The notes below the pieces were generated by a model. That model was given only the letters and a program-made list of their open reading frames with translations, was not told where the DNA came from and made no database searches. A DNA stretch of 64,000 bases from NCBI GenBank assembly GCA_947460875.1, contig CANHGR010000007.1, forward strand, positions 1 through 64,000, given 5' to 3'. Shown here in pieces: positions 36,489 to 43,716 of the stretch (its first letter is position 1; every line of letters starts with the position of its first letter). Both the position numbers and the translations under genes were made by a program. Source of the DNA: Sphingobacteriaceae bacterium (GTDB lineage Bacteria; Bacteroidota; Bacteroidia; Sphingobacteriales; Sphingobacteriaceae).

Positions 36489-39074
36489 TTAAAGCACAAC
36501 CCTCAAAGTCAATCCTAATGTTCTTGGATCTCCAAGAACAGAAGCATAGTGACCTGCGTTTCCACCGGCAGGTAACAGTTGCTCATGATAGTCCTTAGCA
36601 AACACATTACGAGCCCAAATAGCTACTGATAGGCCGATTGCCGTTTTAAATCCTAATCTTGGATTAATTAATGTATAGCCATCAATATTTAAAAATGCAG
36701 AAGGCGATGGACTTGAAGAAAAAGAAGAACGATAATAGCCATCAATAGCCGCATAGAACTTTCCTTCGTTGGCGAAAAACTTGGCGTCTGTTGAGAACTC
36801 TCCGCCAAAAGAACCAGCCCATTTAGAAATTCCCGGAAGGGCGCCACCAGAGATATCTTTAAATGCAACTTGTACATTTGAGCTATTTACAGCACCTGTT
36901 TCCTCAAGTGGGAGAGGCGCATTGGCAAATCTAACGTAACTCGCATCGGTAAATGCTCCAGCAACATAAAAATAGAAATTTCTACTAGCCTGGAGAGTCG
37001 CGTCTAGTTCAAAGCCATGTGTATTTACTTTTTCTGCATTTGCGATATAGCCACGATTAACTCCAAGCTCAGGTGATTGAACATTTGTTTGAAAGTCTTC
37101 GATATCCGAGTTGTGATAAGTTACGTTTAGCGATGAATTGCTAGTGGGGTTTGTCTTAATGCCAATTTCATAGTGCTTTGTATATTCCGGTTTAATCACG
37201 GCGAGATCAAGCGCCGGTGCTCCGGCAATTGTAGGTAAACCTGCTACATTGACTCCTACGGGCTTAAAACTTGTAGAGTAAGTAGCGAAAGCATTTAGAC
37301 GTCTACTTGGTCTATACGATGCCGTTAGGGCATAAGTAAAGTTCTTCTCCGTTGCATCTGCAACATACTTCTGACTGCTGTATACTCCGTTTTTTAACGC
37401 AAGTAGAGCCTGATCGGTTGTTACCAAACCGCCTCTTGCCACGCGATCATAGCTCACATCTTTATTATCATAGTTGTAACGCAGGCCGGGCTGGAAGTGT
37501 AACCCTTCAGCAATTTCCCAATCTACATTAGCAAATATGGCGGCACTTTGGGATTTAATCGATGCATCGGTATATATACCATATCCTTCGAAAAGTCCCG
37601 GTGTTCTCCATCGAGCATCATTAGCGGCACCGGTTGAACTTTGAGAGAAACGCCATTGAGCAGATCCTGATTCTTCTGTACCGTCGACTACCACTTCTTG
37701 ATCAATATAGAACAAGCCGATTACAGCGCTTAATTTTTCAGATAAATCACCAGAATAGCGTATTTCTTGCGACCAGTTATCGTGATCGGCCGGGTTCTGT
37801 GATTTTGCTAAAGCCTGTAGGCCTGTAAAATCTCTGTCATTTGAGGGCCTCCAATTCCAGTATCGCCATGCTGTAGTAGAGGTCAGTGTTCCCGCACCCA
37901 GTTTCGTTTCAGCATTTAGTGAAAAACCTCCTAGTTCGTTTCCCGATCTCCATGGAGTATCATGATCAATTTTACGATCAAATGCGTTCAGGCTTGGCAG
38001 TGTATATCCAAGATCTGAAATTATTGCATTGAATTGTCTATAAGCTGGTCGTTTGGTAGTGACAACTCCGGCTACTACCTGGGCGTATCCATCAGGATTC
38101 TGACCAGAAACATCTCCTACCAGAGTGATTGAGGTATTTTCAGAAGGTTTGAACAATAGTTGACCCCGAAAACCCAGGTTGTTAATATCATTTGTTGCAT
38201 GGCCTGTTCTCACATTCTCAACCACACCATCTCTTTGAGTTCCTGAGAATGAAAGGCGCGCTGCAAATTTCTTGCTTATCGGTCCGGAAACCGAGGCTTT
38301 TGCCTGGATGTAGCCATAATTGCCGAAGCTCGTTTCAAAACTTGCTTCAGGTTTAAACGAAGCTTTACGTGTAGTTATGTTAAACGCCCCTGATGTGGTA
38401 TTCTTCCCGAATAATGTCCCTTGTGGGCCGCGCAGTACCTCGATTCGTTCAATATCTATAAAATCAAGGGTGGCTGCTGCAGGGCGTGCATAATATACGC
38501 CATCCACATAATAGCCAACACCCGGATCAAGGCCATCATTAGTTAAACCGAATGGTGATCCTATTCCGCGGATATTTATACCGGTATTTCTAGGATTTGA
38601 CGTGTACATCTGAACTGATGGAATTAGTTCTTTTATACGGGTAACATTAAATGCACCCGCTTCTTCGAGCTGACTACCTCCTACGACGGAAATTGGAATA
38701 GGAACATTCTGTAAGGTTTCAGTACGCCGTCTGGAAGTAACAACAATTTCCTCTAACAAGGCATCGTCTACAAGAGTTATTTGCAATGGTTCAGCTTGGA
38801 ATCTAAGTACTTGAAAATCCTGAGCCTTAAATCCGACAAAACTTACTCTTAAGAAAAATGGAGTTTCAAGGTTTACCGTAAGGGTAAAATTACCGATTGA
38901 ATCTGCAACGGTGGAGGTTGATGTTCCGCGAACGGTTACGGAAGCTCCGGGTAATGGTAAACCATTGCTGTCTTTGACTACGCCGCTTACATTTTGCTGC
39001 GCAAATGAAGGAACGAGATAAATAGTTATTATAACAAGTAGTATAAATTTTACTGCATAAATTAAATTTTTCAT
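36489..39074 (-). CDS. TonB-dependent outer-membrane receptor
   Basis: An 861-residue receptor. The signal peptide ends PSFAQ (about 25). A CarboxypepD_reg-like beta domain (about 28-105) with GVVKDSNGLPLPGASVTVRG is followed by the plug (TLQNVPIPISVVGGSQLEE, about 120-138; GPQGTLFGKNTTSGAFNI) and a 22-strand-type barrel ending in a hydrophobic C-terminal strand (LGLTLRVVL). It is not SusC-like and has no SusD neighbour, so it resembles siderophore- or small-molecule-type receptors. The divergent sulfur genes and the cysteine-rich leader ahead of it suggest it imports a sulfur compound. The substrate is inferred, not shown. Confidence 0.88.
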   Translation of the reverse strand: MKNLIYAVKFILLVIITIYLVPSFAQQNVSGVVKDSNGLPLPGASVTVRGTSTSTVADSIGNFTLTVNLETPFFLRVSFVGFKAQDFQVLRFQAEPLQITLVDDALLEEIVVTSRRRTETLQNVPIPISVVGGSQLEEAGAFNVTRIKELIPSVQMYTSNPRNTGINIRGIGSPFGLTNDGLDPGVGYYVDGVYYARPAAATLDFIDIERIEVLRGPQGTLFGKNTTSGAFNITTRKASFKPEASFETSFGNYGYIQAKASVSGPISKKFAARLSFSGTQRDGVVENVRTGHATNDINNLGFRGQLLFKPSENTSITLVGDVSGQNPDGYAQVVAGVVTTKRPAYRQFNAIISDLGYTLPSLNAFDRKIDHDTPWRSGNELGGFSLNAETKLGAGTLTSTTAWRYWNWRPSNDRDFTGLQALAKSQNPADHDNWSQEIRYSGDLSEKLSAVIGLFYIDQEVVVDGTEESGSAQWRFSQSSTGAANDARWRTPGLFEGYGIYTDASIKSQSAAIFANVDWEIAEGLHFQPGLRYNYDNKDVSYDRVARGGLVTTDQALLALKNGVYSSQKYVADATEKNFTYALTASYRPSRRLNAFATYSTSFKPVGVNVAGLPTIAGAPALDLAVIKPEYTKHYEIGIKTNPTSNSSLNVTYHNSDIEDFQTNVQSPELGVNRGYIANAEKVNTHGFELDATLQASRNFYFYVAGAFTDASYVRFANAPLPLEETGAVNSSNVQVAFKDISGGALPGISKWAGSFGGEFSTDAKFFANEGKFYAAIDGYYRSSFSSSPSPSAFLNIDGYTLINPRLGFKTAIGLSVAIWARNVFAKDYHEQLLPAGGNAGHYASVLGDPRTLGLTLRVVL

Positions 39075-39084
39075 TGAGTCATTG

Positions 39085-39153
39085 TTAAGATTTAGAAATA
39101 GAGGAATAAATGAGAAACTGTCTTAGAAAAATCAACAACAGCAGCAAGGGCAT
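39085..39153 (-). other. Second overlapping short open frame ahead of the TonB receptor
   Basis: A 22-codon frame starting at an ATG that lies within the cysteine codon run of the upstream leader (the ATG is formed by the AAA-TGC junction). It reads MPLLLLLIFLRQF... and stops 10 nt before the receptor ATG. Its placement would let it couple leader translation to receptor translation. It may equally be chance. No composition or homology evidence supports expression. Confidence 0.25.
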
Positions 39154-39206
39154 TTATTAAACACAAAAAGTTCAAAATTCGGAGAAATAAATAAATTAAA
39201 ATACAT
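39132..39206 (-). CDS. Candidate cysteine-rich leader peptide
   Basis: A 24-residue open frame, too short for usual gene calls. It begins at an ATG 13 nt downstream of the predicted transcription start and ends NKCPCCCC-stop, so five of the last six codons are Cys (TGC, TGC, TGC, TGT, TGT). The receptor gene starts 57 nt after its stop. The form is that of an amino-acid-sensing leader: scarcity of Cys-tRNA would stall ribosomes in the run. Cysteine-codon leaders that attenuate sulfur genes are known from mycobacteria. I see no clear terminator hairpin in the 57-nt gap, so any control would be translational or Rho-based. Expression is inferred from promoter and context. Confidence 0.6.
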   Translation of the reverse strand: MYFNLFISPNFELFVFNKCPCCCC

Positions 39207-39225
39207 AGTCTATAGAAATAGTAGG

Positions 39226-39254
39226 CAAATATACTGTATTTCTTATGTTTCAAA
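39226..39254 (-). promoter_or_regulatory. Promoter of the leader and TonB receptor
   Basis: On the minus strand TTTG (39251-39254) is followed after 17 nt by TATATTTG (39226-39233), a full match to the Bacteroidota consensus. The predicted start at about 39219 lies 13 nt ahead of the leader ATG. Confidence 0.75.
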
Positions 39255-39565: not shown

Positions 39566-39593
39566 CTGGCATACACTACCAACTCTATAGAAT

Positions 39594-41690
39594 ATGCAAA
39601 GTTTCAGGACTGAATTAGAAAATCCTGTAGTCGAACAAGATATTATCGATCTCGAAAGAAGGATCCGATTGTTCCAAGAAGGCGAAATCCATGAAGAAAA
39701 ATTTCGAAGCTTGAGACTTGCGCGCGGTGTATACGGTCAGCGTCAACAAGGTGTACAAATGATTCGTATCAAGTTGCCTTATGGAAAAGTAAGCACAACA
39801 CAACTCAACAGGATTTCTGATGTGGCTGATAAGTACGCAACCGGAAACCTTCATATAACCACCCGCCAAGATATACAATTACACTTTGTCAGCTTGGACA
39901 GAACTCCCGAACTTTGGTCTGAGCTGGAACAAGATAAAATAACGCTACGTGAAGCTTGCGGCAATACTGTACGAAACGTTACTGCCTCGGCAGAGGCTGG
40001 TATTGACCCCAATGAAGTTTTTGATATCAGTCCGTACGCACAGGCCTATTTCGAATACTTCTTACGTAATCCTGTTTGCCAGGACATGGGTAGAAAGTTT
40101 AAAATCGCATTTTCCTCGTCAGAATCAGATACGGCGTTTACGTTTATGCATGATCTTGGTTTTATCCCGAAGGTTAGAGTTGAAAACGGAAAAGAAATAA
40201 GGGGATTTAAAATAGTCTTAGGAGGGGGTTTAGGTTCACAACCACATATTGCTGAGCATGTTACAGATTTCATGCATGAAGACCTTATTATCCCTTTCGG
40301 GGAAGCTGTGTTGCGCATTTTTGACCGATACGGTGAGCGTGTAAAAAGACATAAGGCGCGGATGAAATACCTCATTCAAGACCTGGGCCTAGATCCGTTC
40401 TTAAAACTTGTTGAGGAAGAACGTTTAGCGCTCAAGAACAAAATAGTTAAAATTAGCCGTGAGTATCCTGCGCCGATTTTATCTGACGGGAAGATATTCA
40501 GCGCAATCCCGAGCAACCCATTGAAATATGAACAATGGTTGCAAAGCAACATTTATTCGCAGCGTCAGGAAGGTTTCAAGGCAATCGGTCTAAAGGTTCA
40601 AAATGGCGATATAAAGACACCCATTGCTCGCAAATTGGTACATTTAGTAAGGGCAATTGCTGCCGACGATATTCGTCTTACGAACACGCAGGGAATAGTA
40701 TTGCGTTATGTGCGTGAAGAGAATCTTGCTTATGCATTCGAAGAATTAGATAAGCTAGGATTGGCCGAGCCAGGTTTCGGCTCCGTGGCCGACGTAACTT
40801 CATGCCCCGGCACCGATACTTGTAATCTTGGTATCTCTAACAGTACAGGCATCACCCGCGAGCTTGAAAAAGTGATCGTCGAAGAATATCCTGACCTAAT
40901 TTATAATAAAGACATTACTATAAAAATAAGCGGTTGTATAAATGCCTGCGGACAGCATGCGATGGCTGCTATCGGCTTCCACGGTTCCAGTATGAAAGTT
41001 GGTAAATTGGTTGCTCCTGCCTTGCAGGTTTTATTAGGTGGCGGCCCTACCGGGGATGGTGCCGGACTGGCATCAGACAAGGTTATAAAAGTTCCGAGCA
41101 AAAGGGGACCACAGGCGCTACGCGTCTTGCTGGAAGATTACCAGTCTAAATGCGATGAAGGTGAGCTATTCAACCAATATTATGCCCGCCAGGGGAAGAT
41201 CTATTTCTACGATCTTTTAAACCATCTTGGAAATACTGATACGATTACACCTGATGATTTCATCGACTGGGGACATACAGAGGCCTACAAACCTGAAATA
41301 GGCGTAGGCGAATGCGCAAGTGTTATGATCGATCTTGTAGCGACATTACTTCTTGATTCTGAAGAAAAAATACAGAAGGCAGAAGAATCATTCGCTGCAG
41401 ACGATTTTCCAGAATCAATTTATTACAGCTATACTTCCTTCGTCAATACTGCTAAAGCGCTACTGACCGGAGAGGGTACAAAAACAAATACGCAAGCGGG
41501 AATTATTAAAGATTTTGATGAACTTTTTATATCGGGAGGTAAAATCGATGTTGGCGTTAGTTTTACAGATCTGGTTTATCAGATCAATCAACAAGAGCCT
41601 TCGAGAGAATTTGCATCGTATTATTTAGAGCAAGCAAATATTTTTCAACAAAAAGCAGCAGCATTTCGACAGCTACAAATAGCCGAATAA
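39594..41690 (+). CDS. Siroheme sulfite/nitrite reductase with C-terminal HEPN domain
   Basis: A 698-residue reductase. Two ferredoxin-like half-domains and two siroheme/[4Fe-4S] domains run from about 40 to 560. Cluster ligands are Cys404, Cys410, Cys448 and Cys452 (TSCPGTDTC...SGCINACGQH), with NLHITTRQDIQLHF near 85-98. It catalyses six-electron reduction of sulfite to sulfide (or nitrite to ammonia). After about residue 575 there is a helical HEPN-like domain (FPESIYYSYTSFVNTAKALL). The next gene, a siroheme synthase/sulfite exporter fusion, favours sulfite as substrate. Electron donor is not encoded here. Confidence 0.87.
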   Translation: MQSFRTELENPVVEQDIIDLERRIRLFQEGEIHEEKFRSLRLARGVYGQRQQGVQMIRIKLPYGKVSTTQLNRISDVADKYATGNLHITTRQDIQLHFVSLDRTPELWSELEQDKITLREACGNTVRNVTASAEAGIDPNEVFDISPYAQAYFEYFLRNPVCQDMGRKFKIAFSSSESDTAFTFMHDLGFIPKVRVENGKEIRGFKIVLGGGLGSQPHIAEHVTDFMHEDLIIPFGEAVLRIFDRYGERVKRHKARMKYLIQDLGLDPFLKLVEEERLALKNKIVKISREYPAPILSDGKIFSAIPSNPLKYEQWLQSNIYSQRQEGFKAIGLKVQNGDIKTPIARKLVHLVRAIAADDIRLTNTQGIVLRYVREENLAYAFEELDKLGLAEPGFGSVADVTSCPGTDTCNLGISNSTGITRELEKVIVEEYPDLIYNKDITIKISGCINACGQHAMAAIGFHGSSMKVGKLVAPALQVLLGGGPTGDGAGLASDKVIKVPSKRGPQALRVLLEDYQSKCDEGELFNQYYARQGKIYFYDLLNHLGNTDTITPDDFIDWGHTEAYKPEIGVGECASVMIDLVATLLLDSEEKIQKAEESFAADDFPESIYYSYTSFVNTAKALLTGEGTKTNTQAGIIKDFDELFISGGKIDVGVSFTDLVYQINQQEPSREFASYYLEQANIFQQKAAAFRQLQIAE

Positions 41691-41732: not shown

Positions 41733-43226
41733 ATGTCAACAGAACATAAAGAGCATAACACACTTTTTCCTGTATTTCTCAAGCTTGAGAAGTTAAACCT
41801 GTTGATCGTTGGTGGAGGAACCGTGGCTCTGGAAAAACTAACTGCAGTGATGTCGAATAGCCCGCAGGCGAAAGTTAAATTAGTTGCAACAGAGATCTTC
41901 CCTGAAGTAAAAGCTTTTATCGAAAAAAAGGCTATTCCGTTTCAAGAAAGACCGTTTCAAGAACAGGATATGGAGGGCGTCGATGTCGCGATCATCGCGG
42001 TAAACGATAAGACCCTTAGCCAAGAGATTTCTGATGCATGTGTTTCCCGAAAAATTCTCACCAACGTGGCTGATAAGCCTGAATACTGTGATTTTTATCT
42101 GGGCTCTGTTGTACAAAAAGGAAATCTGAAAATTGCAATATCAACTAACGGCAAATCGCCCACGGTTGCAAAAAGAGTAAAAGAGGTTTTAAATGAAGCC
42201 TTCCCACATGAGATAGATGATGTGCTTACTAATATGCAGCAAATCAGGAACACCCTAAGCGGCGATTTTTCTGACAAGGTAAAGCAGCTAAATGATATTA
42301 CTTCTGTTCTTGCGGTAAAAACTGAGACGGAAACCTCAGGTCACAAAAAACTTGTTCAAACACTACTCTATTTAGGTGCTGCAGTTTGCCTGATGGTGCT
42401 TGGACATTTACTTTTTTCTTTTTTTACTTATGATCGAATTTATAGTGTTTCAGGCTGGCTCACTGCACAAATAACGACGGATCTGCTCATTTATATGCTG
42501 GGTGGCTTTATTGCCCAAATGATAGACGGAGCTCTCGGAATGGCATATGGCGTGAGCGCAACTACATTTCTACTTTCTTTTGGAATCAGTCCGGCAGCTG
42601 CAAGCGCAAGCGTGCATACATCAGAGATATTTACCTCGGGTGTTTCAGGGTTGATGCACCTGAAATTTGGCAATGTCAATAGTAAACTTTTTAAGAATTT
42701 ACTTCTCCCAGGCATAGTAGGCGCAATACTCGGAGCGTATATACTTTCTTCTTTGGAAGAATATAGCTATATATTGAAACCCATTGTTGCATCGTACACA
42801 ATGGTGCTGGGTGTTATTATTATCCGCAAGGCCATAAAAGCTAAGTCTAAAAAGAAAAAAACCAAGAATATCGGAGTTTTAGCATTGTTTGGGGGCTTCT
42901 TAGACGCTGTTGGAGGTGGAGGATGGGGACCAATTGTCACTTCCACGCTTATCGCCAACGGACGCAATGCTCGTTACACCATTGGCTCGGTAAACCTCGC
43001 GGAATTTTTTGTTGCGTTCTCAAGTTCAGTAACTTTTATTTTATTTATTGGGCTTAACCATTTCCAGGTAATTTTGGGACTAATCCTTGGCGGAATGATT
43101 GCAGCACCTATCGCTGCTCGCTTGTCGAGTAAACTTCCTGTTAAAACCATTATGCTCGTCGTTGGCATCGTCGTCATATTAGTTTCTGTTCGAATCATCT
43201 TGCTCATGCTTTGGCCCTACCTGTAA
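41733..43226 (+). CDS. Precorrin-2 dehydrogenase/ferrochelatase domain fused to TauE/SafE exporter
   Basis: A 497-residue fusion. The N-terminal part (about 1-205) is a Met8/CysG N-terminal-type siroheme domain: LLIVGGGTVALEKL (NAD-binding, about 23-36), VDVAIIAVND, LTNVADKPEYCDFY and ISTNGKSPTVAKRVKE. The C-terminal part (about 212-497) is a TauE/SafE (TSUP) membrane transporter of about eight helices with two half-repeats (GGFIAQMIDGALGMAYGVS and GGFLDAVGGGGWGPIVTS). One chain therefore makes siroheme for the reductase next door and probably moves sulfite or a related anion across the inner membrane. The gene lies 42 nt after the reductase. Confidence 0.88.
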   Translation: MSTEHKEHNTLFPVFLKLEKLNLLIVGGGTVALEKLTAVMSNSPQAKVKLVATEIFPEVKAFIEKKAIPFQERPFQEQDMEGVDVAIIAVNDKTLSQEISDACVSRKILTNVADKPEYCDFYLGSVVQKGNLKIAISTNGKSPTVAKRVKEVLNEAFPHEIDDVLTNMQQIRNTLSGDFSDKVKQLNDITSVLAVKTETETSGHKKLVQTLLYLGAAVCLMVLGHLLFSFFTYDRIYSVSGWLTAQITTDLLIYMLGGFIAQMIDGALGMAYGVSATTFLLSFGISPAAASASVHTSEIFTSGVSGLMHLKFGNVNSKLFKNLLLPGIVGAILGAYILSSLEEYSYILKPIVASYTMVLGVIIIRKAIKAKSKKKKTKNIGVLALFGGFLDAVGGGGWGPIVTSTLIANGRNARYTIGSVNLAEFFVAFSSSVTFILFIGLNHFQVILGLILGGMIAAPIAARLSSKLPVKTIMLVVGIVVILVSVRIILLMLWPYL

Positions 43227-43260: not shown

Positions 43261-43716
43261 TTGCTAACCAAGAAAGCGAAATACGCGTTTAAGGCATTAA
43301 TTGCTCTTGCGAGGAATGAGAGCAATCAACCAATCCTTATATCAGATATTGCTAGGAACGAACAACTTCCAAGGAAATTTCTTGAAGCAATCTTGCTGGA
43401 ACTAAAGCGAGGCGGATATCTTGGAAGCAAGAAAGGTGCAGGTGGAGGATATTATCTTTTAAAACCCGCATCGGAAATCCAAATGACATCGGTCATCCGA
43501 ATTATCGACGGTCCGATTGCCATGCTCCCTTGTATAAGTTTAAACTTCTACGAGCGCTGTGATGAGTGCATAAGTGAACATTATTGCGGAATCCGCGATG
43601 TTATGAAAGATGTTCGTGATGCAACATTAAAAATACTCGGCGAAACTACCATCGCAGACATGGTGAAGAGAGAAGATGCACTCGGCTTTACGCTTAAAAA
43701 ACTTCCGGTAACTTAA
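43261..43716 (+). CDS. Rrf2-family transcriptional regulator
   Basis: A 151-residue Rrf2 protein. The winged-helix half (KYAFKALIALARNESNQPILISDIA) includes the recognition segment RKFLEAILLELKRGGYLGSKKGAGGGYYL (split here by motif: EAILLELKRGGYL and KKGAGGGYYLLKP). The C-terminal half has four cysteines (MLPCIS, RCDECIS, HYCGI), suggesting a redox, Fe-S or O-acetylserine/cysteine-type signal. The start is TTG; the family N-terminus ML(S/T)KKAKYA begins here and no ATG is available. Last gene of the sulfur unit, so it probably regulates it. A terminator follows. Confidence 0.87.
   Translation: MLTKKAKYAFKALIALARNESNQPILISDIARNEQLPRKFLEAILLELKRGGYLGSKKGAGGGYYLLKPASEIQMTSVIRIIDGPIAMLPCISLNFYERCDECISEHYCGIRDVMKDVRDATLKILGETTIADMVKREDALGFTLKKLPVT

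Follow-up and report, generated by a model that had tools for sequence, protein, structure and literature searches.

In mycobacteria, leaderless poly-Cys short open reading frames (sORFs) stand before cysteine biosynthesis operons and sense cysteine supply (Canestrari et al. 2020, doi 10.1111/mmi.14498, via PMC9031893 and PMC13236596); the original prediction had named Cys-codon leaders as reported in mycobacteria, and these accounts do report them. Leaders of cys and cbs genes have been predicted in Actinobacteria, with Rho suggested as the coupling factor (Seliverstov et al. 2005, PMC1262725), and one paper makes a general mention of leader attenuation ahead of amino-acid operons in Flavobacterium psychrophilum (PMC9723704). 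A search confined to open-access papers yields no earlier case of a Cys-codon leader in Bacteroidota, as had been supposed, so that priority is not certain. Here we describe, in a 64,000-nt stretch of a Sphingobacteriaceae genome (the window, meaning the whole stretch of DNA that was analysed), a short frame ending in Cys codons upstream of a TonB-dependent receptor, which is best read as an attenuator that would gauge Cys-tRNA supply on top of a probable Rrf2 operator.

A short frame ending in cysteine codons

Coordinates re-derived from the sequence bear out the promoter and frame first proposed for this locus (Table 1). On the minus strand a TTTG element is followed after 17 nt by TATATTTG, and the ATG of a 24-codon frame, translated as MYFNLFISPNFELFVFNKCPCCCC and a stop, lies 19 nt past this -10 element; with transcription taken to start 6 to 7 nt past the -10 element, the leader ATG is predicted to lie ~13 nt downstream of the start. 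Cysteine occupies five of the final six codons (C-terminal end NKCPCCCC-stop), and the receptor ATG follows the leader stop after 57 nt, both as originally described, so that the receptor has, upstream and on its own strand, a short frame carrying consecutive Cys codons. Across positions 39085-39153 (-) we also observed a second frame that spans the Cys codons and contains MPLLLLLIFLRQF; such Leu frames, present in one relative too, arise because TGY runs give Leu in another frame.

Table 1. Features of the leader locus and the divergent sulfur genes, in window coordinates
Feature	Position	Strand	Evidence or remark
861-aa TonB-dependent receptor, the leader's target gene	36489..39074	-	Pfam plug, barrel and CarbopepD_reg_2
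G-poor 57-nt spacer, leader stop to receptor ATG; candidate Rho-loading region	39075..39131	-	spacers of the class 1-4% G vs 12-15% before other genes
Leader ORF, MYFNLFISPNFELFVFNKCPCCCC-stop	39132..39206	-	frame, and leaders kept here before orthologous receptors
Putative control codons, Cys-Pro-Cys-Cys-Cys-Cys abutting the stop	39135..39152	-	sequence; relatives keep Cys codons with synonymous change
Operator-like motif TGCCTACTATTTCTATAGACT at the predicted start site	39207..39227	-	27.3 bits, best in 64 kb
-7/-10 element TATATTTG	39226..39233	-	sequence; in relatives too, just before the operator
-33 element TTTG, Bacteroidota-type promoter	39251..39254	-	sequence
Second operator-like site, abutting the sulfite reductase ATG	39573..39593	+	13.7 bits, ranks second in the window
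Sulfite reductase-type gene, NIR_SIR domains	39594..41690	+	under the curated cut-offs of the CysI and NirA models
Siroheme synthase N-domain fused to TauE-like exporter region	41733..43226	+	TIGR01470 over cut-off
Rrf2-family regulator, candidate operator reader	43261..43716	+	TIGR00738 over cut-off

A pattern search of the entire 2.2-Mb genome found four TGY codons followed by a stop at this single place, and genome-wide we found no other poly-Cys leader. The frame could in principle be functionless and due to chance, as strings of three Cys codons and a stop occur 13 times in the genome, near the 10 of a reversed control. Among these strings, however, the one in the window alone has a leader-sized ATG frame at an intergenic site (the other leader-sized frame lies antisense within a cytochrome gene), and the conservation described below effectively refutes a chance origin, which we regard as scarcely credible. 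In a separate search of 200 genomes of the order, the exact Cys-Pro-Cys4-stop string had two other matches, both in a coding gene and in the wrong frame. Rfam returned only tRNAs and no cis-regulatory RNA for eight loci including that of the window leader (L094), and NCBIfam gave no match to the leader peptide.

Conservation of the leader across families and target genes

We collected 80 orthologous receptor loci by protein alone, regardless of whether a leader was present, and scored a leader where a short frame within 300 nt upstream of the gene carried at least two Cys near its end. Such frames precede 53 of 79 orthologues, which are related by descent and so are not independent trials, compared with 21 of the 556 remaining genes of these loci, 104 of 3950 dinucleotide shuffles and 1 of 79 reverse strands. 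Requiring at least three Cys in the final eight residues leaves 29/79 orthologues against 5/556 other genes, 9/3950 shuffles and 0/79 reverse strands. The window's own genus is represented by one genome; in other genera of Sphingobacteriaceae the same place holds the leaders MKKQITSSVSQTYSGSTLCCGCCR, MNRIIHSSSPCCCCCCVSCN and MKAFKNYSQSSCCCCKNNNVKTFLTALNT, each followed by a stop. Chitinophagaceae leaders frequently end RCC or RCCC, and in Flavobacterium (L043-L090) nearly every locus has a leader, situated roughly at -161 to -47 relative to the receptor ATG, whose tail alternates Met and Cys codons (MMCMC or MMCMCW), as though Met and Cys, the two sulfur amino acids, were both being read. Outside the Cys codons the leaders of Sphingobacteriaceae, Chitinophagaceae and Flavobacteriaceae show no evident kinship, and Cytophagales orthologues mostly have no leader.

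The same class of leader occurs on other genes. A search for CTATAGA followed by four Cys codons within ~90 nt gave matches in 79 of the family's 301 genomes, where the reversed control gave 15, and the leaders found in this way precede the window-type receptor, a separate SusC-like receptor in Mucilaginibacter (~985 residues, adjoining cysD and cysN in one locus examined) and a PhyH dioxygenase in Pedobacter and Mucilaginibacter. Both additional sets were then gathered again by protein, in order to escape the bias of a pattern built on Cys codons, and a Cys-ending leader preceded 17/17 SusC-like genes and 24/24 PhyH oxygenase genes, with tails that include CCCC, GCCC, MCCC and CCYCCC. The expectations that relatives would keep the frame and its Cys run, and that similar frames would turn up at other Bacteroidota sulfur loci, are thereby borne out, with leaders in three Bacteroidota families and before three gene families. 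The PhyH-type dioxygenase (268 residues, for example at L138 6145-6948 (-) and at 23 other Pedobacter loci within L227-L250) may act by releasing sulfur from an organosulfur compound. We also note poly-Cys leaders before AhpC/TSA-type (thioredoxin-fold) genes in two Mucilaginibacter genomes (L129 3016-3815 (+) and L126).

A probable start-site operator and sulfur regulon

Matches to NIR_SIR, TIGR01470 and TIGR00738 uphold the earlier naming of the divergent genes as a sulfite reductase, a siroheme synthase/exporter fusion and an Rrf2 regulator. The exporter region of the fusion is named from the homologous fusion of locus L025, in which a TauE domain was detected, and the window Rrf2 protein is similar to CymR, yet under the CymR cut-off. 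Of 67 long loci, 44 have sulfur genes or Rrf2 no more than 8 kb from the receptor, and 30 have an Rrf2 gene at such a distance; in most Flavobacterium loci it stands just upstream.

The segment from the -10 element to the leader ATG, CCTACTATTTCTATAGACT, is a conserved operator-like motif common to the sulfite reductase and cysHDN promoters. A matrix of 37 sites from relatives, with the window left out (consensus TGTCTACTAANTCTATAGA), places its two best sites in the window at the predicted leader start and at the sulfite reductase gene. A third copy in the same genome, TGCCTACTTTTTCTAAAGACA (contig C15, L207 10117-10137 (-), 20.0 bits), has no Cys leader; it lies at the cysH promoter right after the -10 element, and no site in the 15.5 kb surrounding cysH-cysD-cysN scores higher. 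The operator common to the receptor, sulfite reductase and cysHDN, together with the gene neighbourhood, supports placing the receptor in a sulfur regulon that comprises three or more transcription units and in this way links the target gene to sulfur metabolism; we infer that its substrate is a sulfur compound. The Rrf2 protein probably binds the start-site motif. In three Cytophagales orthologues the operator lies 21-23 nt before the receptor ATG. In Chitinophagaceae (L024, L025, L031, L038 and L044) operator-like motifs flank the leader on its upstream side and on the side facing the receptor, an arrangement that suggests a second control point in several members of this family.

Selection on the cysteine codons and drift of the peptide body

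In the 17-codon body of the SusC-set leaders, differences number 276, 251 and 241 at codon positions 1, 2 and 3, and 382 of 412 codon differences alter the residue; the near-equal counts at the three positions therefore indicate that the body of this peptide is unconstrained. In the PhyH set (n = 11) all 58 differences in the last six codons, MCCCCA, are third-position and synonymous, and the leader body shows partial conservation, which is to be expected of sequences from a single genus. The leaders use both TGT and TGC, the Cys are kept as codons in relatives, and in 81 of 94 leaders, a set partly selected by Cys content, at most one residue separates the final Cys from the stop. That the body drifts while the Cys codons stay fits what a codon gauge would predict, and is predicted less by an arrest or metal-binding peptide.

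This pattern bears on a nascent-peptide metal sensor of the CutF/CruR kind, in which a Cys or Met-Cys tail would bind copper or another thiophilic metal and alter ribosome release. Tails rich in Cys or Met-Cys could bind Cu(I), and CruR, like the leader here, is an upstream ORF with a Cys motif that precedes a TonB-dependent transporter (PMC9973294). CutF and CruR are, however, copper-binding nascent proteins with CxxxC and a Pro-rich tail (PMC9973294), features absent from NKCPCCCC-stop, and the Cys residues here would still be inside the ribosome when it reaches the stop. With peptide bodies unconserved, and with neighbours and operator that indicate sulfur, we consider metal sensing very unlikely.

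Leader RNA and the G-poor spacer

The window leader RNA folds no better than its shuffles (z 0.09). A classical attenuator, switching between terminator and antiterminator, finds a few cases of hairpins with U runs, chiefly in Chitinophagaceae, where 4 against 0.85 expected may be a local enrichment; across all leaders, by contrast, terminator-like sites are not generally enriched (9/94 against ~5.7 expected), and no intrinsic terminator lies between leader and receptor in the window or in Flavobacterium. This mechanism is accordingly highly improbable for the class. In most Mucilaginibacter SusC leaders a small hairpin, ATGCAG...CTGCAT, with little covariation, stands just before the Cys codons (for example L115 1510-1673 (+)).

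A second way of reading Cys would act on translation: the Cys codons would form a hairpin with spacer sequence close to the receptor start, and a stalled ribosome would melt it and so allow the receptor to be translated. Mycobacterial poly-Cys leaders are reported to attenuate translation (PMC9031893), a mode also proposed for toiL (PMC12121999). The Flavobacterium MCMC codons do pair with a conserved element that precedes the receptor ATG (z -3.7 versus shuffles, 8 consensus pairs), a finding in favour of translational control in that genus; pairing is weaker for the Cys codons of the SusC set (z -1.3). Against it, the Flavobacterium pairs include none with changes at both sides, Cys codons and spacer show no sign of pairing in the window's group (mean z -0.05), and none is seen in Chitinophagaceae; we think this account rather unlikely.

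The spacer itself is distinctive in composition. The final 45 nt before the target gene contain 1-4% G versus 12-15% before other genes in the same loci, and spacer G is 3.7% versus 10.9% for large genes (p about 3e-14). This G-poverty extends across all groups tested, and C is raised in the spacers of Sphingobacteriaceae groups only. Rho loads on G-poor unstructured RNA, and the window spacer belongs to this G-poor class within an RNA whose fold is as weak as that of shuffles. Because the spacers are strongly G-depleted, with no terminator or general hairpin, Rho is the coupling that we favour; the depletion could instead serve ribosome access.

A proposed mechanism

That the leader is a cis-regulator of a sulfur gene, reading Cys supply, is very probable on the evidence of these comparisons. 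We propose that a sulfur-responsive regulator, probably the Rrf2 protein, would work at the start-site operator, and that once transcription begins a ribosome would translate the leader immediately. With ample cysteine the ribosome would clear the Cys codons and depart, baring the G-poor spacer, and transcription would be terminated early, most likely by Rho. With scarce cysteine it would stall on the Cys codons by the stop and shield the start of the spacer, so that receptor expression would continue; both the stall and the direction of the response, up under cysteine shortage, are conjectural. Within a Cys-reading regulator we hold coupling through Rho masking as a tentative choice, consider coupling through a translational effect possible but somewhat doubtful, and leave the remaining weight to mRNA protection or another route. 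More broadly, and also tentatively, we envisage a two-layer Bacteroidota sulfur regulon in which a start-site operator common to sulfur genes at large is combined with a terminator-free Cys gauge (Met-Cys in Flavobacterium) on genes for outer-membrane import and oxygenases, with a coupling outside the textbook scheme, either Rho masking where the spacer nearly lacks G or protection of the mRNA by the ribosome.

If true, and to judge by searchable papers, Bacteroidota would here gain their first Cys-codon leader, and TonB-dependent receptors their first leader of the amino-acid-codon kind. Leader and operator together could assign substrate-orphan receptors, plentiful in Bacteroidota, to sulfur acquisition, and the system opens attenuation to test where ribosome binding departs from the Shine-Dalgarno rule and the terminator is absent.

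Comparison with known leader systems

To judge from the open papers, this kind of leader appears to be known from Actinobacteria and new in Bacteroidota and on importers. E. coli tnaC, of the tryptophanase operon, illustrates the coupling proposed here, in that a ribosome held at the leader end can block Rho nearby; TnaC stalls by means of its own peptide and tryptophan, whereas for the present leaders, with their unconserved body, we propose codon supply (PMC9973294, PMC1262725). The Rhodobacterales uORFC-8-2 before cysS likewise has tandem Cys codons in an upstream frame, but it ends in an intrinsic terminator and its target is cysteinyl-tRNA synthetase (PMC8632094). The predicted actinobacterial leaders share Cys runs near the stop, the absence of a terminator hairpin and the suggestion of Rho, and differ in standing on biosynthesis operons, with neither an importer target nor a Met-Cys variant (PMC1262725). 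The mycobacterial poly-Cys sORFs resemble the present leaders in being short upstream frames with contiguous Cys codons at sulfur genes. They are leaderless and act on biosynthesis operons, whereas here, in a different phylum, the AUG would lie ~13 nt past a predicted start that carries an operator, and the target is an outer-membrane receptor or PhyH.
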